Below are positions 47,561 through 64,000 of a stretch of DNA of 64,000 bases, piece by piece. A program made the position numbers and the translations under genes. The DNA comes from an uncultured Caulobacterales bacterium. GTDB lineage: Bacteria > Pseudomonadota > Alphaproteobacteria > Caulobacterales > Maricaulaceae. Each line of letters starts with the position of its first letter. The first letter of the stretch is position 1. Below the pieces are notes generated by a model. It was not told the origin of the DNA. It ran no database searches and saw only the letters and a program-made list of their open reading frames with translations. The stretch covers positions 1-64,000 of the forward strand of contig CALLIK010000005.1 of the NCBI GenBank assembly GCA_938009235.1, in the 5' to 3' direction.

Positions 47561-48826
47561 CTACGATCCAATCAATTTCGGAAACGGAATATCTAGAGCT
47601 TGAAGACGCAAAGCCGAGTTCTTGGCCTTGCGTAGTGTTTTGAAGTTCCCTGCTTTAACTTTTCTCAAAAGTTGCAATTGAATGGAGGCCACAGTGTCCA
47701 TCGTGACGCATGTAGAGACCTCTAGATTATTTTGAGCGTAATCCTGCGCGCGCGCCGGTGTCTCTAGACTTTCCTTGATGGACTCCTCTAGGGCAGCTTG
47801 GTTAAGCGGTTCGAAATTAAACCCCTTAAGTCCTTCACGTTCCGTCACATCAATAAAATCACCCATCATTGGATAGGCGGCGGGAGTGCCGTAGATCGCA
47901 GCCTGATGCAGAACACCAGAACTTCCCGTCGTGCTATCATAGTCAAAAATGGCGAGTTTGGCTTGCGTGAAGAATGAGGCGACCTCCTGTTCCGCGACGT
48001 AGCCATGAAACACTACATTTGCGTCTGCCTCATGGTCATTTGCCAAAGCCTTTAGATACCCTGGCGTCGCAGGATGATCGCTTCCGCCAATAACTAACTT
48101 TATTTTCTGCGTTGATGACAGCTCAGCATTCAAATTCTGAATAGCGCCAATTGTACGTTCGAGGCGTTTATAAGTCCCAAATTTCCCCATCGTCACAATC
48201 GTTCTAGGGCGGTGGACAAGCTCAGTTATTTGGGCGTTGGCGGCTTGCGGAAAAGAGCCATGCGGCACCATGAATGCGTTCTTGGCCTTATATTTCTCAT
48301 TCAAAATATCCCAAAAACTATCCAATGTCACGGTCATGAAACCCGTCATCAACATTGTCTTCGTCACAAAGTAACTCGCAGCACTGACCAGTTTTTGTCG
48401 TAACGGACTTTTGGCAAGATTGGTTTTGCTAAGGTCCACGGCTTCAACAAGGTTGTGCATGATCACGCCCGAAGGCACCGATAGTTTCTGCGAAATTGCA
48501 GGCGCGAGTAAGCCAAGGGCCGCCGGAATTTCACTGTCCCCGAAGGATGCCGTTTGAAGATTATATAGAGCGCCCTCAGCATCAGACGCTTTGATGGCGC
48601 GTAAGATATGAAACCCTGCAAGCGGGCTATTGAACTGCCAAATCCGCTGTACCTCTACCTTCGGGCCAAGATCCAATTCTGGCAGTACGCCGTCATATTT
48701 ATCAGCGATAACGATAATTTTTTTAACATCCTGTCTGGCGGCGAAGGCATTCACAAGATGAAAACCGTATTCGTTCAAAGAGCCTGCGCTGGGAGGGAAG
48801 GCCGTAACAATTGCGATCGTTTTCAT
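47561..48826 (-). CDS. GT4-type glycosyltransferase
   Basis: A 421-residue GT-B fold glycosyltransferase without TM. The N-domain begins TIAIVTAFPPSAGSLNEYGFHLVNAF; the C-domain shows RTIVTMGKFGTYKRLERTIGAI, KLVIGGSDH, VVFHGYVAEQEVASFFTQAKLAIFDYDSTTGSSGVLHQAAIYGTPA. The usual E-x7-E motif is altered. It is the last gene of the minus operon, overlapping the glycosidase-like gene by four bases. A role in building the repeat unit of the surface polysaccharide is inferred. Confidence 0.82.
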   Translation of the reverse strand: MKTIAIVTAFPPSAGSLNEYGFHLVNAFAARQDVKKIIVIADKYDGVLPELDLGPKVEVQRIWQFNSPLAGFHILRAIKASDAEGALYNLQTASFGDSEIPAALGLLAPAISQKLSVPSGVIMHNLVEAVDLSKTNLAKSPLRQKLVSAASYFVTKTMLMTGFMTVTLDSFWDILNEKYKAKNAFMVPHGSFPQAANAQITELVHRPRTIVTMGKFGTYKRLERTIGAIQNLNAELSSTQKIKLVIGGSDHPATPGYLKALANDHEADANVVFHGYVAEQEVASFFTQAKLAIFDYDSTTGSSGVLHQAAIYGTPAAYPMMGDFIDVTEREGLKGFNFEPLNQAALEESIKESLETPARAQDYAQNNLEVSTCVTMDTVASIQLQLLRKVKAGNFKTLRKAKNSALRLQALDIPFPKLIGS

Positions 48827-50363: not shown

Positions 50364-51053
50364 CTAAGCGCTCCCATTGTTACATAACGCCGAAACATCA
50401 GAAGATATAACGTCCGTGTTTTTTAGGGTGGCCCTAATTCTTAGGGGCGACTTAAATTTAGCGGGGCAGCGGCTCGCAAAAATGATACGACTGTTTGAAA
50501 GTTGTATGTTTTCTGAGCTTTTGACGCCGTGTTGATCAATCCAATCCAACGAGACTAGCGTTTGATCTGAAACTGCATTGCCAAAGTCATCCGTTATTAC
50601 ATCAGATCGAATATCGATCGATTGCGAATGATGAGAGCGTTTTGTTACAAGGTCAAATACAGCAGGTTGCCCCACGCTAACCATGACGGATGCGGCCTTA
50701 GAAACAACACCGTCAACCCGCGCCACAAAATCCATCATACCTGAATTAGACTGGGCATTTATATCAAAAGATACCAGTCCGTCTGTTGCGGTATCCGTTA
50801 AGGTCGTTTCAGTCCCATCTACTAAATAGGTCAATTCAACATCTTTGTTATGCGCGCTAATCCCACCGCTCTCCGTGACTTCTACAGTCACATGGATGAC
50901 TTGCCCTGGCGTGACTGTTTGCGGTCCAGCATATGTCTGAACCATATCAGTTGGCATGTGCGCCCATGCTTGCGCGTGCACAAAAACTGGAAAAACTCCA
51001 ACCGTCGCGATGAATGACAAGAGGCAATACAGGGCTTTCATACGTTGGGTCAT
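50364..51053 (-). CDS. Secreted protein with Ig-like repeats, first gene of the minus polysaccharide operon
   Basis: About 229 residues from the ATG at 51053. Signal peptide MTQRMKALYCLLSFIATVGVFPVFVHAQAWA; then one clear Ig/invasin-like beta module (about 35-135: GPQTVTPGQVIHVTVEVTESGGISAHNKDVELTYLVDG...) and a second beta-rich module (about 136-229) with two Cys. The frame is open 77 codons further upstream, but that part overlaps the divergent promoter region and has no ribosome binding site. A sigma-54 type promoter at 51088-51103 fits this start (leader about 25 bases). Function unknown; a surface or scaffold role is inferred. Confidence 0.65.
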   Translation of the reverse strand: MTQRMKALYCLLSFIATVGVFPVFVHAQAWAHMPTDMVQTYAGPQTVTPGQVIHVTVEVTESGGISAHNKDVELTYLVDGTETTLTDTATDGLVSFDINAQSNSGMMDFVARVDGVVSKAASVMVSVGQPAVFDLVTKRSHHSQSIDIRSDVITDDFGNAVSDQTLVSLDWIDQHGVKSSENIQLSNSRIIFASRCPAKFKSPLRIRATLKNTDVISSDVSALCNNGSA

Positions 51054-51087
51054 AGATCTTTTCTTTGCGAAGTTACCTATGAGGGGT

Positions 51088-51103
51088 TGCAATGGACATG
51101 CCG
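51088..51103 (-). promoter_or_regulatory. Sigma-54 type -24/-12 promoter, minus operon
   Basis: Minus strand reads CGGCATGTCCATTGCA: GG and GC separated by exactly ten bases, close to the consensus TGGCACG-N4-TTGCA. Predicted start about 51078, 25 bases before the ATG. Confidence 0.65.
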
Positions 51104-51152
51104 TAGAAAACGCCTTGTTTTCGCGCTTAATCGCGCAAAATTGCAAAATTAG

Positions 51153-51169
51153 ATTTGCGAAATGCAAAT
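51153..51169. promoter_or_regulatory. Palindromic upstream activator site shared by divergent sigma-54 promoters
   Basis: ATTTGC-N5-GCAAAT, perfect 6-bp arms, centred at 51161. It is 83 bases from each predicted start (51078 and 51244). Further TTTGC/GCAAA half-sites lie at 51134-51147 and 51180-51187. It is a candidate binding site of the sigma-54 dependent regulator encoded at 62130-63593. Confidence 0.55.
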
Positions 51170-51217
51170 GTCTTTTCTGATTTGCAAAGGAAACATGCCC
51201 AATCCCCTTAAAAATAG

Positions 51218-51233
51218 CGGCCCAGAATTTGCG
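51218..51233 (+). promoter_or_regulatory. Sigma-54 type -24/-12 promoter, GT2 operon
   Basis: CGGCCCAGAATTTGCG: GG and GC separated by ten bases, TTTGC at -12. Predicted start about 51244, followed by GGAG (51253) and ATG 51263. Confidence 0.6.
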
Positions 51234-51262
51234 TGGGTATCTTCGAAATATTGGAGATGAAA

Positions 51263-52435
51263 ATGACCGAATACGCGACATCACATCACGACACCGCCTT
51301 AACTAATACCGTATCGAAGCCTGTGGTTTGGACTCATAATAGAACGTCTATTATCATTCCATGTTATAATGAGGCCGACCGATTACACCTCGAAGTCTTT
51401 CTTAACTTCGCAAGGCAGAACCCAAAAATTTCATTCGTATTTGTAGATGATGGTTCGAAAGACTTGACCATTAGCTTGCTCTGCGGCGCAATGGCGGCAT
51501 TACCCAGTCAGGTGGATGTTTTAACAATGGCGAGAAATGCAGGTAAAGCCGAAGCGGTACGGCACGGCCTTAAATTCGCAGCCAAACGCGGTGACAAGTA
51601 TATAGCGTTTCTGGACGCCGATCTTGCGACCCCTTTGAACGCGATTAATGACTTCATTTCTGTCGCCGATAGATTGGATAACATTGACGTTGTCTTTGGG
51701 TCACGTGCTGGCGGCCTTGGTCGGCGTGTTTACCGTGACATCCACCGCAAAATGATTTCCCTCGTTTGCGCATCAATGGGACGATTAGCGACAGGTTTGG
51801 CGCTCAAGGATACACAATGCGGCGCGAAATTATTCCGGAACACGGAACTCCTCAACAACTGTCTCGAAACCCCTTTCACAGCTGGATGGCTTTTCGATGT
51901 TGAGCTTTTTCTTAGAATTTCAAACCCCAACAAACGAAAACGGGAAAACTTCTTTGAATACCCCGTTCTAGAATGGACGGAAATCCCAGGATCAAACATC
52001 AAATTTTCAGACGTCATTAAGGGCGGCTTTAAAATGACATCGCTCATTTTCAATCAATGGAAAATTCGAGCACGTTATCGGAAGAGACGAAGCCTGCCGG
52101 AACCATCGCTAACGCAACATCTTCGCTCTGGGGATACTTTAAACACGCAAAGCATTCGTTCAATGGAAGCTATCATTTCAGATGAAAAACATCTCATCAC
52201 TTTAGATTTCTCCAAGGTAAAGACCTTAGGACCTTCTGTTTTCACAACACTTACAGAAGTCTGCGAAAGCTTGATAGCGCGCGGTAAAGACGTGTCTATT
52301 TTCTTACCTGATAATACTGACGTGTTGTCAGCTGCGCGTCGGTCCTCCATCACAGCCCTTTTTAACTGTACAATCAAAACGAGCCTTCCAAGCCACTTTG
52401 CGGACAACGCACGCTTTTCATTAACGGAGGCGTAA
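51263..52435 (+). CDS. GT2 glycosyltransferase fused to a C-terminal STAS-like domain
   Basis: A 390-residue protein. Residues about 25-260 are a DPM1-type GT2: TSIIIPCYNEADRLHLEVFL, FVFVDDGSKD, ARNAGKAEAVRHGL, the metal-binding FLDADLATPL, and GSRAGGLGRRVYRDIHRKMIS. Residues about 295-385 resemble a STAS/anti-sigma antagonist domain (LITLDFSKVKTLGPSVFTTLTEVCESLIARGKDVSIFL), with Ser in the usual phospho-Ser loop. No TM. I chose ATG 51263: GGAG lies six bases upstream and it follows the sigma-54 start site. The downstream flippase begins at the next base. The fusion suggests regulated sugar transfer. Confidence 0.8.
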   Translation: MTEYATSHHDTALTNTVSKPVVWTHNRTSIIIPCYNEADRLHLEVFLNFARQNPKISFVFVDDGSKDLTISLLCGAMAALPSQVDVLTMARNAGKAEAVRHGLKFAAKRGDKYIAFLDADLATPLNAINDFISVADRLDNIDVVFGSRAGGLGRRVYRDIHRKMISLVCASMGRLATGLALKDTQCGAKLFRNTELLNNCLETPFTAGWLFDVELFLRISNPNKRKRENFFEYPVLEWTEIPGSNIKFSDVIKGGFKMTSLIFNQWKIRARYRKRRSLPEPSLTQHLRSGDTLNTQSIRSMEAIISDEKHLITLDFSKVKTLGPSVFTTLTEVCESLIARGKDVSIFLPDNTDVLSAARRSSITALFNCTIKTSLPSHFADNARFSLTEA

Positions 52436-53738: not shown

Positions 53739-56700
53739 ATGACAGCAAGGTCGTGGACATATCTAGCGATCTTACTGGCTCTCATGTTTCATGGGGCGCT
53801 GTTGCCATTCACCTATGGGCAAACCTACGATTCCTATATTCATATGTTTTTTGGGAATCACTATCTAACGTCTTGGTTCGACCCTTGGGAAACACGCTGG
53901 TATACAGGCTTCACAGTTACAGCCTACCCGCCCGGAAGCCATCAAGCGCTAGGTATTCTAATGCGCTTTATGGACATGCGCATAGCGTTCATCATACTGC
54001 AACTCTTAGCTATCGGCCTTTTGATTGTTGGCGTGTTTCGTTTCAGCCGCCTTTGGGTGAATGATAAGGCTGCGTCTTATGCCGCCATGCTATGCGCTTT
54101 TTCGACAAGTATTTCGGAAACGCTGCATATCTTTGGGCAGTTACCGACACTGCTCTCAATCGCATTATTTTTGAACGCAATCCCTCATATTTCAAGTTGG
54201 ATTGAACGCGGACGGAAACGCGACTTTGTCTTGGGTCTTTTCCTAACAGCCGCGACAACGTCAGTTCACCATGTCACGCCTTTGTTTGGAACTGTGTTCT
54301 TTGTGGCGCCGATTGGACTCGCCGCATTCTTAGCCAATTTAAAAATGCGCGAACCTTCAAGGCCTAAGGGCAAAATCGCCTATTTAAAATGGGCCTCCCC
54401 CGCATTGATCCGCGGCCTGATCATGGGACTGGGGATGTTGACTTTAATCATCACTATCGTCTTCCCTTATTGGCATTGGTCCATAACAGATCCGATCACG
54501 CAGGTCAGCATCCCTCATGGTAGCCGAGAAAATTTCATCGCTAAACCAAACTTGGGATTGATGTTTTTTGTTATCCCTTGGGGCATGTTGATTACTGTTG
54601 TGCCCTATGTCGTTCTAAAATCAGCCCGCACAGCCTTATGGCCATTAGGTCTCTCCGTCCTTATCGCGCTATTTTTAGGAACAGGCGGAACAACACCATT
54701 TCCGCGCATTTTGTTAGGCCCCGCATTTGAAATTTTGACGTTAGACCGCTTCACCTTCTGGGCTTCAATTTTAATATTACCCTTCGCGGGATTGGCCGTT
54801 CAAAGCCTATGGGAAGGCAGAGCGAAGATACTAATCAACCACGCCTTTGGCTCTTTTTTGAGTCGCGCTTTTCTCGTCTTAACGCTCGTGAGTTATGTTG
54901 GTCTCGCCGTCGGCACTGCCCTGCTGCCTACATTCCGCCCAACGCAGCCTGACTTCATTGATCCTGCCCCCATAGTTAAATTCATGGACGAAGACCGTCA
55001 TTCAGATTGGCGGTATCTGACACTCGGGTTTGGAGATCAATTCGCCTATCATAGCGCTCTCATCAACGCCGAGTCAGTTGACGGAAATTATCATTCAGCG
55101 AGACGTCTGCCGAGCTTGATGAACTACTCGGTCGAACGGTTGGAAAATTCGAAATATATGGGCGTGCCTGGTTTGGCATCCCTCAATCAATTTCTTACCA
55201 ATGCTGAAAAATTTCATTTGAAATATGTATTCTCGAATGACGAATTCTACGATCCAGTTCTGCACTATACGGGCTGGAACCAAGTCACGCGCCTAAACAA
55301 TGGTATTCGCGTTTGGGAGAAACCAGACATCTCGCCGTTACCTGCCGTTAGGCCGCGCCGAGATTTACCTCGCTACCAAAAAATCATGTGGGGCACATTG
55401 CCGATTGGGTCATTGATCCTTGGCTTCCTGACTTTGATAGGACTTGCATTACGGCAAAAACTGATCTCGTCTGAAGCATCGCCTTTCCTGAGGGCCCCTC
55501 CTTCGCCAATGATGATAATCCAAGCTCCTCAATCTAGCTCAACACTGGCCATAGATATGATCTCCGCACCACCGAGACGAACGCAAGGTTGGAGACCTTC
55601 AAGACGTATGACATGGATGGCCAGAGCCTTACCAGTAACCTCAGTGTGCCTATGTGTTTTTGTATTAGCCACGTCCATAAAAACTCAAAACACGCCGCTA
55701 CAACCCGCAACCGTTGTTGAGACCTTCTATCAACATTTGGACTTCCGCGAGACAGAGCAAGCATTCTCATTAATCGCGGCAAACCCCGAGATGGACTATG
55801 GGCAATTCCTAAGACTACAAAAACTCACAGGTGGCCTTGTCCCCTCTTTCGGGAAACTCACCTCCGTGACCTTGGAAAATATAGAAACAAAAGAGGCCGG
55901 CACAGTCCGAGTACAATCAGACCTTACATACCTCACATCCGTCGGAATACGGCAAGTCATGTCCGACATGACCTTAGTGACGTCAGATGCGGGAACTTGG
56001 AAAATCCAGTACAGCCCACCACAAAAGACCTACACGCCTAATCTCGCGACGCGTAGCAACGCTCCGCTGTTCCGCGACCTAACTGGGCAAAAATCCGTTT
56101 CCCCGGCAGACCCGGTCCAACGGCTAGCCCGGCCTGAGATCGAACTTATGGCGGCTGAGGTCATCAAAGAGGACGGGCGTTTATTCGTCATAGGCCGCAT
56201 CAAAAACCTGTCTGAATTCCCCGCCTGCACAAAAGTCATGGGTCAAACGACGGTCAACGAAACCCCAACAGACTTTCAACAACATGCAGGACGGCTCGGG
56301 TCACATCGGCTTCTACCTGGGGAAAGTTCTGCTTTCCGCGTGGATTTTGAAGGGTATCTGAAGATACAGGATCAGCCTTTGACTGCAGCCTATAACCCTC
56401 ATGAGTTCAGCCTACCCGAGTTTGAGACGGTTCCAACAGATGTAGGTCTGTCGATTTCCACAACTGTCTGTACACCTGCCTATTATAAATCACTGACATT
56501 TACAGAGATGTCAGTGTCTGAGACCACACGGGGAAAGTCCTTAAATTTGACAGTCACCAATTCAGGGGCTGAGATTGTCAGTACGCTTCAACTCAAACTT
56601 TCATATGTCGATGCGGATAATCACTTGATGTGGGTGGAGCCTTATTACATGCAAAACAATCTCATCCCCGGGGAGGTTCGCACAATCCAAGTTCCTCTCT

Positions 56701-56867
56701 CAGATAAGCTAGGCACGCAGGTTGCCTCCGCCAATCGCCTACAGATCAATGGCCAAACACGCGACATAAATGCCAACTCGGTGTGGCCCACAGGCGTTAA
56801 ACTGACAAACAGCGATACCCGCGTTATGATAGATTACGACGCGATGCTTTATCGCCCACTCGACTAG
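53739..56867 (+). CDS. Large polytopic membrane protein with periplasmic C-terminal region
   Basis: A 1042-residue protein. The N-terminal half (about 1-580) has many TM segments and early-loop motifs FTYGQTYDSYIHMFFGNHYL and FDPWETRWYTGFTVTAYPPGSHQALG, resembling PTPS-related/GT-C type membrane glycosyltransferase families. After another TM (about 635-655) comes about 390 residues of soluble beta-rich sequence, including a nuclear-transport-factor-like part (VVETFYQHLDFRETEQAFSLIA) and two Ig-like segments. It may transfer a sugar from a lipid donor. One base separates it from the flippase stop. Function inferred only. Confidence 0.65.
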   Translation: MTARSWTYLAILLALMFHGALLPFTYGQTYDSYIHMFFGNHYLTSWFDPWETRWYTGFTVTAYPPGSHQALGILMRFMDMRIAFIILQLLAIGLLIVGVFRFSRLWVNDKAASYAAMLCAFSTSISETLHIFGQLPTLLSIALFLNAIPHISSWIERGRKRDFVLGLFLTAATTSVHHVTPLFGTVFFVAPIGLAAFLANLKMREPSRPKGKIAYLKWASPALIRGLIMGLGMLTLIITIVFPYWHWSITDPITQVSIPHGSRENFIAKPNLGLMFFVIPWGMLITVVPYVVLKSARTALWPLGLSVLIALFLGTGGTTPFPRILLGPAFEILTLDRFTFWASILILPFAGLAVQSLWEGRAKILINHAFGSFLSRAFLVLTLVSYVGLAVGTALLPTFRPTQPDFIDPAPIVKFMDEDRHSDWRYLTLGFGDQFAYHSALINAESVDGNYHSARRLPSLMNYSVERLENSKYMGVPGLASLNQFLTNAEKFHLKYVFSNDEFYDPVLHYTGWNQVTRLNNGIRVWEKPDISPLPAVRPRRDLPRYQKIMWGTLPIGSLILGFLTLIGLALRQKLISSEASPFLRAPPSPMMIIQAPQSSSTLAIDMISAPPRRTQGWRPSRRMTWMARALPVTSVCLCVFVLATSIKTQNTPLQPATVVETFYQHLDFRETEQAFSLIAANPEMDYGQFLRLQKLTGGLVPSFGKLTSVTLENIETKEAGTVRVQSDLTYLTSVGIRQVMSDMTLVTSDAGTWKIQYSPPQKTYTPNLATRSNAPLFRDLTGQKSVSPADPVQRLARPEIELMAAEVIKEDGRLFVIGRIKNLSEFPACTKVMGQTTVNETPTDFQQHAGRLGSHRLLPGESSAFRVDFEGYLKIQDQPLTAAYNPHEFSLPEFETVPTDVGLSISTTVCTPAYYKSLTFTEMSVSETTRGKSLNLTVTNSGAEIVSTLQLKLSYVDADNHLMWVEPYYMQNNLIPGEVRTIQVPLSDKLGTQVASANRLQINGQTRDINANSVWPTGVKLTNSDTRVMIDYDAMLYRPLD

Positions 56868-56900: not shown

Positions 56901-56933
56901 AATTTGCATAATGCGAACTGCGATATGCAAATT
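56901..56933. promoter_or_regulatory. 10-bp inverted repeat, probable upstream activator site
   Basis: AATTTGCATA (56901-56910) and TATGCAAATT (56924-56933) are perfect inverted arms with a 13-base spacer. They contain the same ATTTGC/GCAAAT cores as the palindrome at 51153. The centre is about 109 bases before the predicted sigma-54 start of the TolC-like gene. Confidence 0.55.
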
Positions 56934-56961
56934 GCTAAAATTCTGCGAAATTTACACCTAG

Positions 56962-56969
56962 TTAACCAT
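56962..56969. promoter_or_regulatory. Possible CtrA half-site
   Basis: TTAACCAT lies between the inverted repeat and the sigma-54 promoter of the TolC-like gene. It is a short motif and chance is possible. Confidence 0.25.
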
Positions 56970-56999
56970 CTAACCGCTTGTTTTTATTGAGGCAGAAAG

Positions 57000-57015
57000 T
57001 GGTCTCTCGATTGCA
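57000..57015 (+). promoter_or_regulatory. Sigma-54 type -24/-12 promoter, TolC-like operon
   Basis: TGGTCTCTCGATTGCA: TGG at -24 and TTGCA at -12 with ten bases between GG and GC. The inner -24 bases are less conserved. Predicted start about 57026, then GGAG (57034) and ATG 57045. Confidence 0.6.
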
Positions 57016-60036: not shown

Positions 60037-62133
60037 ATGACCCATTCAACGAACAACGACACAAACGTTTCGGCCGAATGCAATGCAACAGCCCCGCTGT
60101 TTAAGCATTTAGGTAAATTCGCAGCCTGTATGGTTGGCACCACGACCCTCTGCCTTGGCGCTTACTTTGCGACAGTCGACAACCTCGTAGAAAAGTCAGA
60201 AGTGCCAGGAACCTATAAGTCCTTCTTGCTGAAAGATGTCCCCGGCCCGCGTATTATTTTTGAGTCTGGGTCTAACTCTCACCATGCTATCGACACAAAA
60301 ACCGTCGGAACAGCGCTAGGCATGACTGCGATCAATATCGCCGACAATGCGGGTTATTCTCTAGAAGATAAAGTCACGCGCCTAGAGACCTATACTCGGG
60401 CTGGAGACGTGGTCGTTCTTCCGTTGGAGTGGAGCTTTTATAGTCGCGAGAAACTAACCGACGCCTATGTCGAATCCATATTTTCTGAGAACCGCGATTA
60501 CTATCGATCAATGCCGCCACTCAAGCGCCTACAACGTGCGTTAAGTTTACCCCCAGAGACAGTCATTTCGGAGCTACGCCAATCGGTTTCACGTCCAGCC
60601 AAAGAAACAGAATCTCCCGCACATCAATTATTCAGCACAGCCATTACCCTGCCATCAGGGCATTTCGTTAGAGAGGCATCGATCGGCCCTGGAGTAGGGG
60701 TCGCAGATCAAAGTTGTGACGACTATATTTTAGGAAAGCCTGACGTGCGGAAGACGTTGAAGCTCGGGAAAAATGTAAAACCTGCCCTTGCAAGACTAAA
60801 AAAACTCAAAGCTCGCGGTGTTGATATCCATTTCGCTTGGCCCGTTTTGGCCGGTGAAGGCTGCATGAGCGACCCTGCTTTTGTTAAAGGTTTTCGTAGC
60901 GAAATCGAAACTGCCGTTAATAAGGCGGGGTTTGAATTTTTGGGAACGCCAAGCCAGAGTCTTTACGGTCAAAATTTTCAGGACGACACGCCGTATCACT
61001 TAATTTCTGCAGGCACAGACCTGCATACTGCGCAAATGATCAGGTTTCTAAAGGCCCAAGGCCATGATACAGATGGGAAACCTCTCGATCTCAAAACATT
61101 TGCGCGCCATCGCTTATTAGAATTGGAATTAGCGGAAGCCACCTCCGTAAAACAACCTGCCCTACCCGTCGGACATGCCATTCGAATGGACGACCCTGAC
61201 TTTCGTAGCCATGTGCACTTCAGTGCAGGTTGGTGGGTATTCGAACCTTATGGTCGTTGGATGCGAGATAACCGCGCTATGTTCCAAGTAACCCTGCCAG
61301 ACAGCCTCCCAGTGGACGCGATGTTGGAGATAAAAGGGATTACAAGATCTAGGCGTCAAGACCGCGTAAATATCTCTATTGACGGGCACCTAATTGCATC
61401 ATCTTTATTTAGAGAGAACGCACCATTACAAATTCCCGTCGCAGACCTACCACGCGGTAAAGCCCTCTCAATTTTCATTGATTTGCCTGACGCAGGCGTT
61501 GCTCGTAGTCCCTTAGATGAAGGCGAAAGTGAAGACGCCCGTTCAATGACATTACTTTTTCAGAGTCTAGAACTTACATCTTTGACAGACCTAAAGGGGA
61601 CCCAGTTATCGGTCTCTAAAGATAGCTCTATTGAAATAGAAACTGTCGCAGTTTCGCCCCTACCAACACCAACAGCTCTGTCTGAAGTCTCAATACCGCC
61701 CGTAGCCCTTAAGCGAACACCCTATAACCTAGAGATAGATACTCCAAAATCATCAATAGAATATGGTGCGGGCTGGTGGTCACAGGAAACCGAGGGCCGC
61801 TGGATGCGTAATGAGACTGCAAGTTTCGACCTAAGGGTACCTCAGAGTGATCAAAGTTCAGACGGCTATATTCTTCGGCTCGTGGGAGATTTTTTCTTAA
61901 ATAAACCTCAACCCGTCGATATCATGATTAACGAAGAAATGGTTGGCTCAGCCACTGTAGACGCGTCGGGAATTATTTCTATTCCTTTCGCCTCATCAAA
62001 GGTTTCTGAGTCTGTCAAAGTGACTGTAAACCTTACAGAGGCGAACCTAATTAGCCCAAAGGCTATGGGCTTATCCTCAGACGAGCGTACGCTGACTTAC
62101 TTTTTAAAGTCAGCAGAACTACAGCCCATTTAA
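60037..62133 (+). CDS. SGNH/AlgJ-like protein with two C-terminal GWW/GRWMR domains
   Basis: A 698-residue protein: one N-terminal TM (about 28-48), then an SGNH-like domain (to about 370) with FESGSNSHHAID (possible nucleophile Ser) and the distal DDTPYHLISAGTDLHT, matching the Asp-x-x-His block of MBOAT partner esterases. The last 310 residues hold two related beta domains, each with GWW followed by GRWMR (about residues 398 and 579). I chose ATG at 60037, preceded by TTTTGGAG; an in-frame TTG lies four codons upstream. With the MBOAT it probably O-acetylates the exported glycan. Confidence 0.75.
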   Translation: MTHSTNNDTNVSAECNATAPLFKHLGKFAACMVGTTTLCLGAYFATVDNLVEKSEVPGTYKSFLLKDVPGPRIIFESGSNSHHAIDTKTVGTALGMTAINIADNAGYSLEDKVTRLETYTRAGDVVVLPLEWSFYSREKLTDAYVESIFSENRDYYRSMPPLKRLQRALSLPPETVISELRQSVSRPAKETESPAHQLFSTAITLPSGHFVREASIGPGVGVADQSCDDYILGKPDVRKTLKLGKNVKPALARLKKLKARGVDIHFAWPVLAGEGCMSDPAFVKGFRSEIETAVNKAGFEFLGTPSQSLYGQNFQDDTPYHLISAGTDLHTAQMIRFLKAQGHDTDGKPLDLKTFARHRLLELELAEATSVKQPALPVGHAIRMDDPDFRSHVHFSAGWWVFEPYGRWMRDNRAMFQVTLPDSLPVDAMLEIKGITRSRRQDRVNISIDGHLIASSLFRENAPLQIPVADLPRGKALSIFIDLPDAGVARSPLDEGESEDARSMTLLFQSLELTSLTDLKGTQLSVSKDSSIEIETVAVSPLPTPTALSEVSIPPVALKRTPYNLEIDTPKSSIEYGAGWWSQETEGRWMRNETASFDLRVPQSDQSSDGYILRLVGDFFLNKPQPVDIMINEEMVGSATVDASGIISIPFASSKVSESVKVTVNLTEANLISPKAMGLSSDERTLTYFLKSAELQPI

Positions 62134-63593
62134 CCGACAAGACTGTCGTAGGTTTGAATCTCTAAATCGGACTTGATCCATGTTCGCTGTTTTCGATAAA
62201 TTGTCGAAGGACTAATATCTAAAATAAGAGAGGCTTTTGGGACGCTCCCTCCGCACTGCGCAATCACCGACTCAATAACGTGTTGTTCAATGCGTCTCAT
62301 TGTTTGATTGATATCGATAGGAACTGTTTTTTTCATCGATTGAAGCGGAGTGACTTTGGGGCGCTCCCCCACCAATCCGATCAGCTGATAGTCATCAACA
62401 TCGCTTGATTGGGGCGCGGGTTTGAATGACAACATGTCAGGTTCGAGTTCTATCCCGTCATGTATAACTACCGCTTTTCGTATTGTATTTTGTAATTCTC
62501 TGACATTACCCGGCCAATAGTAATCGAGGAGAACTTTTTTTGCTGCAGGCGAAATCCCTACAAATTTCCGTCCCTCCTCTGCGGCATAAGATTTAAGGAA
62601 ACTATTTGCGAGCAAAATTACATCTAGCCCCCGACTCGAGAGAGGGGGTAACTCAATCGATAAAACATCAAGACGATAGAATAAATCTTCGCGAAACCGA
62701 TTTTCATTTACTTCTATGACAGGGTCCCGATTGGTCGCACAGACAATCCGAACATCAACGGTTTCGGTCCAATCACTGCCTACTCGTTTAACTTGCCCCG
62801 TTTGCAAAAATCGTAAAAGTTTGGCTTGGAGATTTATATCCATTTCGCAAATTTCATCGAGAAATAGTGTTCCGCCAACCGCTTGGCTAATCGCCCCCTT
62901 TCGCATTTCATGCGCGCCCGTGAAGGCACCTTTGACATGCCCAAATATTTCTGACTCTATCAAATGTTCTGGCAAGGCGGCGCAGTTCAAAGCGATGAAC
63001 GGCGCTTTACGGCGATAGCTAACTTTATGGATGGCCTGAGCCGTCACTTCTTTACCAGTACCTGACGCTCCAGTTATAAACACGGTTGCATTTGAGTCGG
63101 CAACATTTTGGATCATTTTATAGACGGCACGCATTGGGGCAGATTCACCCACAAAACCCGGAGGTCTAGTCGTTCCGCTTAGCGTTTCAATTTTACGGTC
63201 ATTTATCTTCAAGCATCTTTTTTCGATCGCATTTTGGACAGCCGTCAACAGTTTTTCCGCTGGAAAGGGTTTGATTAAAAAATCATCAGCCCCCGCTCGC
63301 ATCGCCTCTACGGCCGTATTTACTGACCCATTATCAGTTATAGTAATGAAGCTGATTTCATGCGCAGTTTTATTCATTTCCAGAATGATGTCCAAGCCAT
63401 TCATATCAGGTAGCCGAAGATCAAGTATGACGGTGTGAATATTACCTGTTCTCAACTCTGCTAGGGCGCGTTCCCCTGTTTGACAAAATTGAGATTTAAT
63501 TCCGTTTTTTTCTAAATTCAGTTGGTACATTATAGCCATCGACAAAGTACTCTCAACGATCAGAACGTCATGTACTATGCTTTGTTCAACCAT
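62130..63593 (-). CDS. Sigma-54 dependent response regulator of the polysaccharide locus
   Basis: A 487-residue NtrC-type regulator. Receiver (8-125): phospho-acceptor Asp58 (VILDLRLPDMNGLD) and Lys108, but the acidic pocket reads Glu14-Ser15 (LIVES) instead of Asp/Glu-Asp. AAA+ domain (about 145-385): Walker A GASGTGKE (175-182), GAFTGA (222-227) for sigma-54 contact, and GGTLFLDEICEM. The C-terminal Fis-type HTH ends VPKASLILDISPSTIYRKQRTW. ATG 63593 is preceded by AGGGA; a longer frame to 63656 has no ribosome binding site. It converges on the SGNH gene (four-base overlap). Confidence 0.92.
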   Translation of the reverse strand: MVEQSIVHDVLIVESTLSMAIMYQLNLEKNGIKSQFCQTGERALAELRTGNIHTVILDLRLPDMNGLDIILEMNKTAHEISFITITDNGSVNTAVEAMRAGADDFLIKPFPAEKLLTAVQNAIEKRCLKINDRKIETLSGTTRPPGFVGESAPMRAVYKMIQNVADSNATVFITGASGTGKEVTAQAIHKVSYRRKAPFIALNCAALPEHLIESEIFGHVKGAFTGAHEMRKGAISQAVGGTLFLDEICEMDINLQAKLLRFLQTGQVKRVGSDWTETVDVRIVCATNRDPVIEVNENRFREDLFYRLDVLSIELPPLSSRGLDVILLANSFLKSYAAEEGRKFVGISPAAKKVLLDYYWPGNVRELQNTIRKAVVIHDGIELEPDMLSFKPAPQSSDVDDYQLIGLVGERPKVTPLQSMKKTVPIDINQTMRRIEQHVIESVIAQCGGSVPKASLILDISPSTIYRKQRTWIKSDLEIQTYDSLVG

Positions 63594-63746
63594 CTTATTC
63601 CCTGCATGTAGAAGGGCACTCGAGCGTGAAAAGAGAGGCCTTTTCCTTAGAAACAAATGTTCAGATGCTACGGAATGCAGTACAAGATCAATGTACGACT
63701 TAAGGCTGTATAATCGTAGTGTGATTAGATTAGGTTAACAGCTAAG
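63594..63746. other. Divergent promoter region right of the sigma-54 regulator
   Basis: Contains GTAC-N9-GTAC (63680-63696) and a plus-strand TATAAT (63709-63714) without a good -35 hexamer. No sigma-54 element or ATTTGC palindrome is visible here, so the regulator gene does not appear to be in its own regulon. Confidence 0.35.
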
Positions 63747-63884: not shown

Positions 63885-63966
63885 CGGGTAAAAAGATGAA
63901 GTTTAAACGCCTGTGACCTGTAAGCGAATCTCAGGCACCCAAAGTAAGTCATACTCGGAGGTAATT

Positions 63967-63991
63967 AACCCACCAAGCTGGAGGGTTTTTT
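63967..63991 (+). terminator. Terminator-like hairpin near the right edge
   Basis: AACCCACC pairs with GGAGGGTT (one mismatch) around a short loop and is followed by a T-run. It cannot be assigned to a gene within the window. Confidence 0.5.
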
Positions 63992-64000
63992 CAACGCGTT

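Follow-up and report, generated by a model that had tools for sequence, protein, structure and literature searches.

A LuxO-like sigma-54 switch predicted at divergent polysaccharide operons of an alphaproteobacterium

What controls two polysaccharide operons that diverge from a single intergenic region of 208 bases? The question is raised by a locus in the 64-kb window analysed here, positions 1 to 64,000 of contig CALLIK010000005.1 (assembly GCA_938009235.1) of an uncultured Caulobacterales bacterium; coordinates below are window positions. A preliminary description of this DNA had proposed that one dimer site, placed midway between two divergent sigma-54 promoters, drives both operons, and that the regulator is encoded at the locus itself. 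We find that exopolysaccharide genes are probably controlled from this region by a LuxO/SypG-like phosphorelay, in which one activator array would fire both operons. The elements of the region are as follows.

51103-51088, minus strand: sigma-54 -24/-12 element of promoter A, leftward operon, CGGCATGTCCATTGCA, GG-N10-GC
51133-51147, unstranded: possible left half-site, GCAAA half only, centre 21 bp left of the central site
51154-51168, unstranded: predicted central LuxO-type activator site, common to promoters A and B, TTTGC-GAAAT-GCAAA
51174-51188, unstranded: predicted second activator site, centre 20 bp right of the central site, TTTCTGATTTGCAAA, 8/10
51218-51233, plus strand: sigma-54 -24/-12 element of promoter B, rightward operon, CGGCCCAGAATTTGCG, GG-N10-GC

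Both -24/-12 elements hold GG-N10-GC in the TGGCAC-N5-TTGCW-like context of a sigma-54 promoter. The palindrome, ATTTGC-GAAAT-GCAAAT, occupies 51153-51169 and is centred on 51161. When the start of transcription is placed 12 bases past the C of the -12 element, the predicted starts fall at about 51078 and about 51244, each 83 bases from the palindrome centre; the start codons (51053 on the minus strand, 51263 on the plus strand) lie some 20-25 bases downstream of them, and the inner edges of the two elements are 115 bp apart. Direct reading of the sequence thus confirms the geometry first reported, that is, a sigma-54 element on each strand with ten-base GG-GC spacing and a palindrome midway, 83 bases from each predicted start. 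A relaxed scan of the window for a palindrome paired with a sigma-54 element yields three pairs, all at the locus, two of them intergenic and the third at 56903-57015; the latter, promoter C, is a third promoter of the same design that the preliminary description had missed. A cruder scan, for TGGCA-N6-TGC with one mismatch, gave 53 matches in the window against a shuffle mean of 67.75, missed both elements and was rejected. For an IHF site the region was looked over by eye only, and none was established.

Which activator would read the palindrome? The literature cited here is drawn on in excerpt, and in these excerpts the LuxO binding-site consensus is TTGCAWWWTGCAA and the SypG site is reported as TTCTCANNNTGMDWN (PMC10162802), while Vibrio cholerae LuxO peaks from chromatin immunoprecipitation (ChIP) carry sites such as ttgcaaaatgcaa (PMC10328515). 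The central site of the window, TTTGCGAAATGCAAA, agrees with the LuxO consensus in 12 of 13 letters, and over the 19 intergenic copies described below the agreement ranges from 11 to 13 letters, being exact in four. At 12 or more letters of 13, the 64-kb window holds two matches, the central site and the site of promoter C. Compared by eye, the central site follows the LuxO form and not the SypG form, and we read the palindrome as a LuxO-type activator site.

The intergenic region was compared in 19 copies, that of the window and 18 from relatives (15 from a first set, to which L084, L085 and L087 were added); two copies come from one genome, G074, L085 is taken as G002, and further copies may be hidden by the fragmentation of metagenome-assembled genomes (MAGs). 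The two sigma-54 elements and the palindrome are kept in all 19. From the centre of the central site to the plus element the distance is 57 bp in every copy, and to the minus element it is 58 bp in 17 copies and 59 bp in two (L035 and L047). A comparison with relatives carrying the locus, which the preliminary description had suggested, therefore finds both palindrome and spacing conserved. The score threshold of the anchored scan is reached by 18 of the 19 copies; the exception, L043, has a palindrome below 9/10, and nonetheless its site fits the LuxO consensus in 13 of 13 letters. Anchoring on the LuxO core brings 17 copies, L043 included, into one gap-free frame, with L035 and L047 off by one base on the minus side. 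Mean bits per column in this frame are highest for the central site (1.64), followed by the minus element (1.62), the plus element (1.48) and the right site (1.40), whereas the left site reaches 0.87 and the spacers 0.56-0.90; conservation of the left half-site thus does not exceed that of the spacers. For the right site the score is 7-10/10 in 17 of the 18 copies scored, and in L044, L045 and L046 this site is TTCGC-N5-GCGAA, a full 10/10. A shared site between the promoters therefore stands as first proposed, but the idea of one dimer site gives way to an array, since conservation extends to the second site, 20 bp to the right. The lopsidedness of this array, with its well-conserved right site and a left half-site at spacer level, would suit an alternative in which each promoter has an activation of its own, B alone being served by the central and right sites and A by some other sequence on the left. 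We consider this unlikely, given that the central site is nearly equidistant from both promoters, that the left spacing is nearly as fixed as the right one, and that no other region on the left side exceeds a mean of 0.87 bits in the 17-copy frame.

The same arrangement recurs at promoter C, whose parts are these.

56903-56917, unstranded: LuxO-type site, TTTGC-ATAAT-GCGAA
56924-56938, unstranded: second site, centre 21 bp past the first, TATGC-AAATT-GCTAA, 8/10
56962-56973, plus strand: 12-mer, TTAACCATCTAA, containing the CtrA half-site sequence TTAACCAT
57000-57015, plus strand: sigma-54 element before the outer-membrane protein gene, TGGTCTCTCGATTGCA

Thirteen copies of promoter C could be aligned, L047 being left out as it is without the outer-membrane protein gene at that place. 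All 13 have a site of 9-10/10, a partner of 6-9/10 at 20 or 21 bp and the sigma-54 element, and in all 13 the stretch TTAACYAYCTAA is invariant, with one occurrence in the window's genome; the 12-mer is likely a site for some protein. Its inner sequence TTAACCAT is given as a CtrA half-site in the excerpt of PMC3692519, and control by CtrA was considered for this reason; a wider regulon on TTAACYAYCTAA is not supported, because the 12-mer occurs once in the genome. A fourth promoter, D, is predicted elsewhere in the window's genome (G000), before the gene of a small protein of about 118 amino acids (G000:C3:111717-112043, L182). All four of the best small-protein matches (G000, G005, G013 and G043) share its design of a strong site, a partner of at least 8/10 and a sigma-54 element, the two sites lying 20 bp apart in G043 and 21 bp apart in the other three. 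Seven weaker homolog loci (L183-L189) have no pair of site and sigma-54 element, and no NCBIfam family was found for the G043 copy of the protein. As promoters C and D share one design, a strong site with a partner 20-21 bp away and a sigma-54 element, they count in favour of a common activator. Some matches to the pattern mark further predicted promoters, in G109 that of an epimerase-like gene and in G083 and G090 that of an H-NOX operon.

The candidate regulators are encoded at the right end of the window and just beyond it.

62133-63596, minus strand: p1, LuxO-like sigma-54 activator (Pfam domains, LuxO match), convergent to the rightward genes
63965-64000, minus strand: 3' end of p2, LuxO-like activator, whole gene G000:C5:63965-65428
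G000:C5:65437-67491, beyond the window: hybrid kinase, upstream of p2

Both p1 and p2 have the build of NtrC-class activators, with receiver, AAA+ and Fis-type helix-turn-helix domains by Pfam and a GAFTGA motif read in each; they are tandem paralogs with 70% identity, of which p2 has only its last bases inside the window. The solved structure nearest p1 in sequence is LuxO. For both proteins the NCBIfam LuxO model NF041946 is the top match, over nearly the full length, at 521.1 bits for p1 and 540.4 bits for p2, and the next-best model, of PrsK-PrsR type, gives 381.8 and 380.5 bits against its cut-off of 502.6. The hybrid kinase, of 684 amino acids, has PAS, HisKA, HATPase, receiver and Hpt domains, and in its Hpt domain and its pairing with the activator it agrees with a Syp-type phosphorelay; the Hpt domain of this kinase itself scores 29.7 bits with PF01627, whose cut-off is 24.6. 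Seventeen loci of relatives hold the regulator, and in 16 of them a kinase homolog (35-75% identity) adjoins it; in the remaining one, L051, the contig ends inside the regulator. The 20 kb holding p2 and the kinase (L032) contain no pair of site and sigma-54 element, which lends no support to autoregulation in the window's genome.

Searched with the regulator, each of 199 genomes gave some match, and 17, its own included, gave one of at least 50% identity. The first glycosyltransferase of the rightward operon was found at 52% identity or more in 15 of 28 genomes searched (in G083 in two pieces), and with G002, added through its promoter, the carriers number 16. In 12 of them the regulator is on the contig of the divergent operons (G000, G007, G009, G013, G016, G032, G043, G071, G073, G074, G090 and G109), and in three it is on a separate one (G012, G083 and G103). 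The relatives include MAGs under the names Algimonas, Hellea and Robiginitomaculum as well as Litorimonas cladophorae, a member of the Robiginitomaculaceae within the Alphaproteobacteria, whose strain KCTC 23968 gave one match to a regulator of this kind. In G074 the locus is present twice (L044 and L045), each time with a conserved promoter region and a regulator. A strict pattern of site and sigma-54 element has matches in 124 of the 199 genomes; the window's genome has three, two intergenic and one in C7, where the sequence appears by eye to be coding. The family is represented by 119 genomes, and its 16 carriers hold 50 matches against 7 for a reversed-pattern control. Thirteen other loci with glycosyltransferase homologs (L097-L107, L116 and L152; 38-51% identity), 12 of whose records bear Rhodobacteraceae-type names and one of which is named Halomonas, show no 10/10 site in their first 2.1 kb, and from this and the placing of their relaxed pairs, given below, we take it that the circuit does not track the glycosyltransferase in general. 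At 11 distant regulator loci (42-46% identity), three have a pair of site and sigma-54 element just before the kinase-regulator genes (L190:7504-7598, L194:6808-6931 and L197:13488-13564), which suggests autoregulation in those three, and six other pairs look like chance or lie inside genes.

Several findings weigh against a LuxO-like activator acting from a tandem array. The right site is a poor palindrome in the window itself (8/10), and in L047 it scores 3/10, apparently shifted by one base and out of register. Neither p1 nor p2 reaches the 800-bit cut-off of NF041946, a Vibrio-specific model, so we class the regulator as LuxO-like and not as a LuxO equivalog; moreover, by sequence either p1 or p2 may be the copy that binds. 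G002 has the locus and its promoter with regulator matches of at most 38% identity, its contig stopping short of where the regulator would be expected; in G001 and G065, which have the regulator, the glycosyltransferase lacks a close match. The window's genome holds eight sigma-54 activator matches at E<=0.001. The 103 family genomes that are not carriers (G001, G005 and G065 included) hold 97 matches to the strict pattern against 45 for the reversed control, and the genome-wide enrichment is therefore only partly specific. Relaxed pairs also occur in five of the 13 unrelated glycosyltransferase loci (L097, L101, L102, L105 and L116), either within the gene region or no closer than some 680 bases upstream of the glycosyltransferase gene.

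Some of these points are what one would expect if the sigma-54 promoters were real and the palindrome were read by a different regulator, whether another activator of the NtrC class or an unrelated repressor or activator, with the LuxO-like linkage incidental: other sigma-54 activators exist in the genome, and the linkage is imperfect in G002, where a contig ends, and in G001 and G065. Yet the site agrees with the LuxO consensus, the regulator and operons are on one contig in 12 genomes and on split contigs in three, the same site returns at promoter C and at the unlinked small-protein promoter, and three of the 11 distant regulator loci have the pair before their kinase-regulator genes. We therefore hold a different regulator to be improbable.

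If a LuxO-like protein binds, which of the two copies would it be? Within the same genus group, five full-length orthologs have 82-87% identity with p2 and 66-69% with p1, and a sixth, partial one from G001 is 74% identical to p2 and 68% to p1. The terminal branch of p1 is 0.59 long and that of p2 0.089, in a tree that does not place p1 exactly. In its receiver p1 reads VES against VED or IED in the other rows covering that place (ED to ES) and ADDFL against AYDFL or AYDYL in the other rows, and it has GASGTGKE against GESGTGKE elsewhere (GDSGTGKE in L043). The phosphorylatable D, the K, GAFTGA and SPSTIYRK are retained. Among the 199 genomes searched, only G000 and G074 list two regulator matches of at least 50% identity, the two of G074 belonging to its two loci, and no p1 ortholog was seen. 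On this evidence we regard p1 as a fast-evolving duplicate with an altered receiver and p2 as the copy orthologous to the regulator of relatives. The GAFTGA regulator with a Fis-type helix-turn-helix that was first noticed at the locus is thus present and linked, but it is the divergent paralog, and the copy that corresponds to the relatives' regulator is p2. It may be argued that p1 is nevertheless the specialised activator of the locus and that p2 now serves other targets, given that p1 is an intact gene directly adjoining the operon, with GAFTGA and the SPSTIYRK recognition helix retained. We give this a small chance, since no p1 ortholog was seen whereas the DNA sites are conserved alongside p2 orthologs, and since p1 has both the long branch and the changed receiver residues.

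Chance occurrence of sigma-54-like and palindromic strings in an A+T-rich spacer is hardly credible: GG-N10-GC strings are common, and when the 208-base region was dinucleotide-shuffled 20,000 times the plus element appeared in 2280 and the minus element in 2319 (about 11-12% each) and the palindrome in 231, but all three came together, with no spacing demanded, in 4, and 19 of 19 copies conserve them at near-fixed spacing. The thresholds of this test (at least 8 for the plus and for the minus element, 10/10 for the palindrome) were picked after the sequence had been seen; therefore we lean on conservation, and in our judgement the comparative evidence for the reality of the elements is stronger than the shuffle test.

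How would such a region work? Sequence, conservation, spacing and homology are read directly from the data, and from the anatomy of the locus we infer binding, phosphotransfer, looping, the direction of control and the role of p1. The hybrid kinase beside p2 would hand phosphate through its Hpt domain to p2; phosphorylated p2 dimers would then sit on one face of the DNA, at the central TTTGC-N5-GCAAA site and at its right-hand neighbour 20 bp away, and build an AAA+ ring. This ring would loop to either of the RNA polymerase-sigma-54 complexes, which would wait at roughly equal distances on the two divergent -24/-12 elements, and a single activator array would thereby fire both operons. The same activator would fire promoter C, with its outer-membrane protein and acyltransferase genes, as well as the promoter elsewhere in the genome, and p1, with its recognition helix and GAFTGA kept and its receiver changed, may modulate the same sites. 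We favour phosphorelay and looping because activation from an enhancer by looping is established behaviour of the NtrC class. Taken together, the evidence suggests that a LuxO-like switch turns on a polysaccharide pathway in this alphaproteobacterium and its relatives. A more far-reaching form of the model is tentative, and we put it somewhat below an even chance: the Hpt-LuxO relay and the LuxO DNA site may act in the Robiginitomaculaceae as a master switch of exopolysaccharide that is separate and not one of quorum sensing, with a 20-21 bp (two-turn) tandem site at each predicted promoter, one array driving two divergent operons, and p1 added beside the operon in the window's genome to modulate the same sites, either independently of phosphorylation or in a dominant-negative way.

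Are there precedents for such a circuit? In Caulobacter, FlbD controls divergent flagellar promoters, and divergent NtrA-dependent promoters of Escherichia coli were reportedly described by Lutz et al. in 1990. The PrsK-PrsR pair of the PEP-CTERM/exosortase system includes a sigma-54 response regulator tied to exopolysaccharide genes; it supplies the second-best NCBIfam match for p1 and p2, but their scores are below its cut-off and well under the LuxO score. In Salmonella, the coordinates given in the excerpt of PMC3844500 put the inner edges of the divergent hycA-hypA sigma-54 promoters about 114 bp apart. The hycA-hypA arrangement of E. coli and Salmonella thus resembles the present one, with 114 bp there and 115 bp here, and differs in having FhlA as the activator and other genes as its targets; given this precedent the divergent geometry itself is not new.

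Closer in regulatory parts are two Vibrio relays. The LuxU-LuxO-qrr system is alike in that the regulator matches LuxO best and that the site fits both TTGCAWWWTGCAA and ChIP sites such as ttgcaaaatgcaa, and unlike in that the NCBIfam LuxO cut-off is missed and the predicted targets here are polysaccharide operons. In the syp system of Vibrio fischeri, as the excerpts of PMC10162802 and PMC12369376 present it, the Hpt domain of SypF delivers phosphate to SypG, and an H-NOX-controlled kinase feeds in. SypF-SypG shares with the present locus a response-regulator sigma-54 activator, a phosphate route through Hpt and a polysaccharide locus, and two relatives, G083 and G090, have an H-NOX gene beside the regulator; in contrast, its site is TTCTCANNNTGMDWN where the LuxO form is found here, and the present system is alphaproteobacterial, has two divergent operons sharing one site and has no H-NOX match in the window's genome. 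H-NOX was found in two of 19 genomes searched, in both beside the regulator. In G083 and G090, genes for H-NOX, a kinase and a response regulator lie behind a LuxO-type site and a sigma-54 element near the regulator (L049:3935-7094 and L162:2602-5732). Vibrio H-NOX kinases feed LuxU/LuxO (PMC3759921) and SypF/SypG (PMC12369376), again by the excerpts of these papers, and the parallel is notable but limited to G083 and G090.

The combination of a LuxO-like activator, LuxO-type sites, an Hpt kinase and polysaccharide operons in Alphaproteobacteria appears to be new; no report of such an alphaproteobacterial LuxO-like circuit was found in a search of open-licence PubMed Central papers, judged by title and abstract opening. 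It would place a LuxO-like activator and LuxO-type sites outside the Vibrionaceae, with polysaccharide operons instead of quorum RNAs and, in two relatives, with a promoter of this kind preceding an H-NOX operon. Whether the quorum and symbiosis-polysaccharide relays of Vibrio derive from an older biofilm switch can now be put to the test. The region would also offer a compact natural case of one enhancer for two sigma-54 promoters at nearly equal and nearly fixed distance, and p1 and p2 are an activator duplication caught with a changed receiver.

The genes of the locus, other than the regulators, are listed below.

47561-48826, minus strand: glycosyltransferase group 1, PF00534
48823-50340, minus strand: protein of 505 amino acids, no Pfam or NCBIfam family found, hydrolase-like by eye only
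50364-51053, minus strand: first gene of the leftward operon, 229 amino acids, secreted-looking by eye, no Pfam family found, orthologs in relatives
51263-52435, plus strand: first gene of the rightward operon, family 2 glycosyltransferase, PF00535
52436-53737, plus strand: multi-pass membrane protein, flippase-like by eye, no Pfam family found
53739-56867, plus strand: membrane protein of 1042 amino acids, PTPS_related (PF10131) below the curated cut-off, 23.9 against 26.4 bits
57045-58529, plus strand: outer membrane efflux (OEP) family protein, PF02321
58546-60015, plus strand: MBOAT O-acyltransferase, PF03062
60025-62133, plus strand: protein of 702 amino acids adjoining the MBOAT gene, no family found, acetyltransferase partner by position only

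Judged by this gene content, the locus is one of polysaccharide synthesis and export. An RpoN gene is present in the window's genome, and the gene order of the locus is kept in relatives, with the acyltransferase pair absent from several loci.

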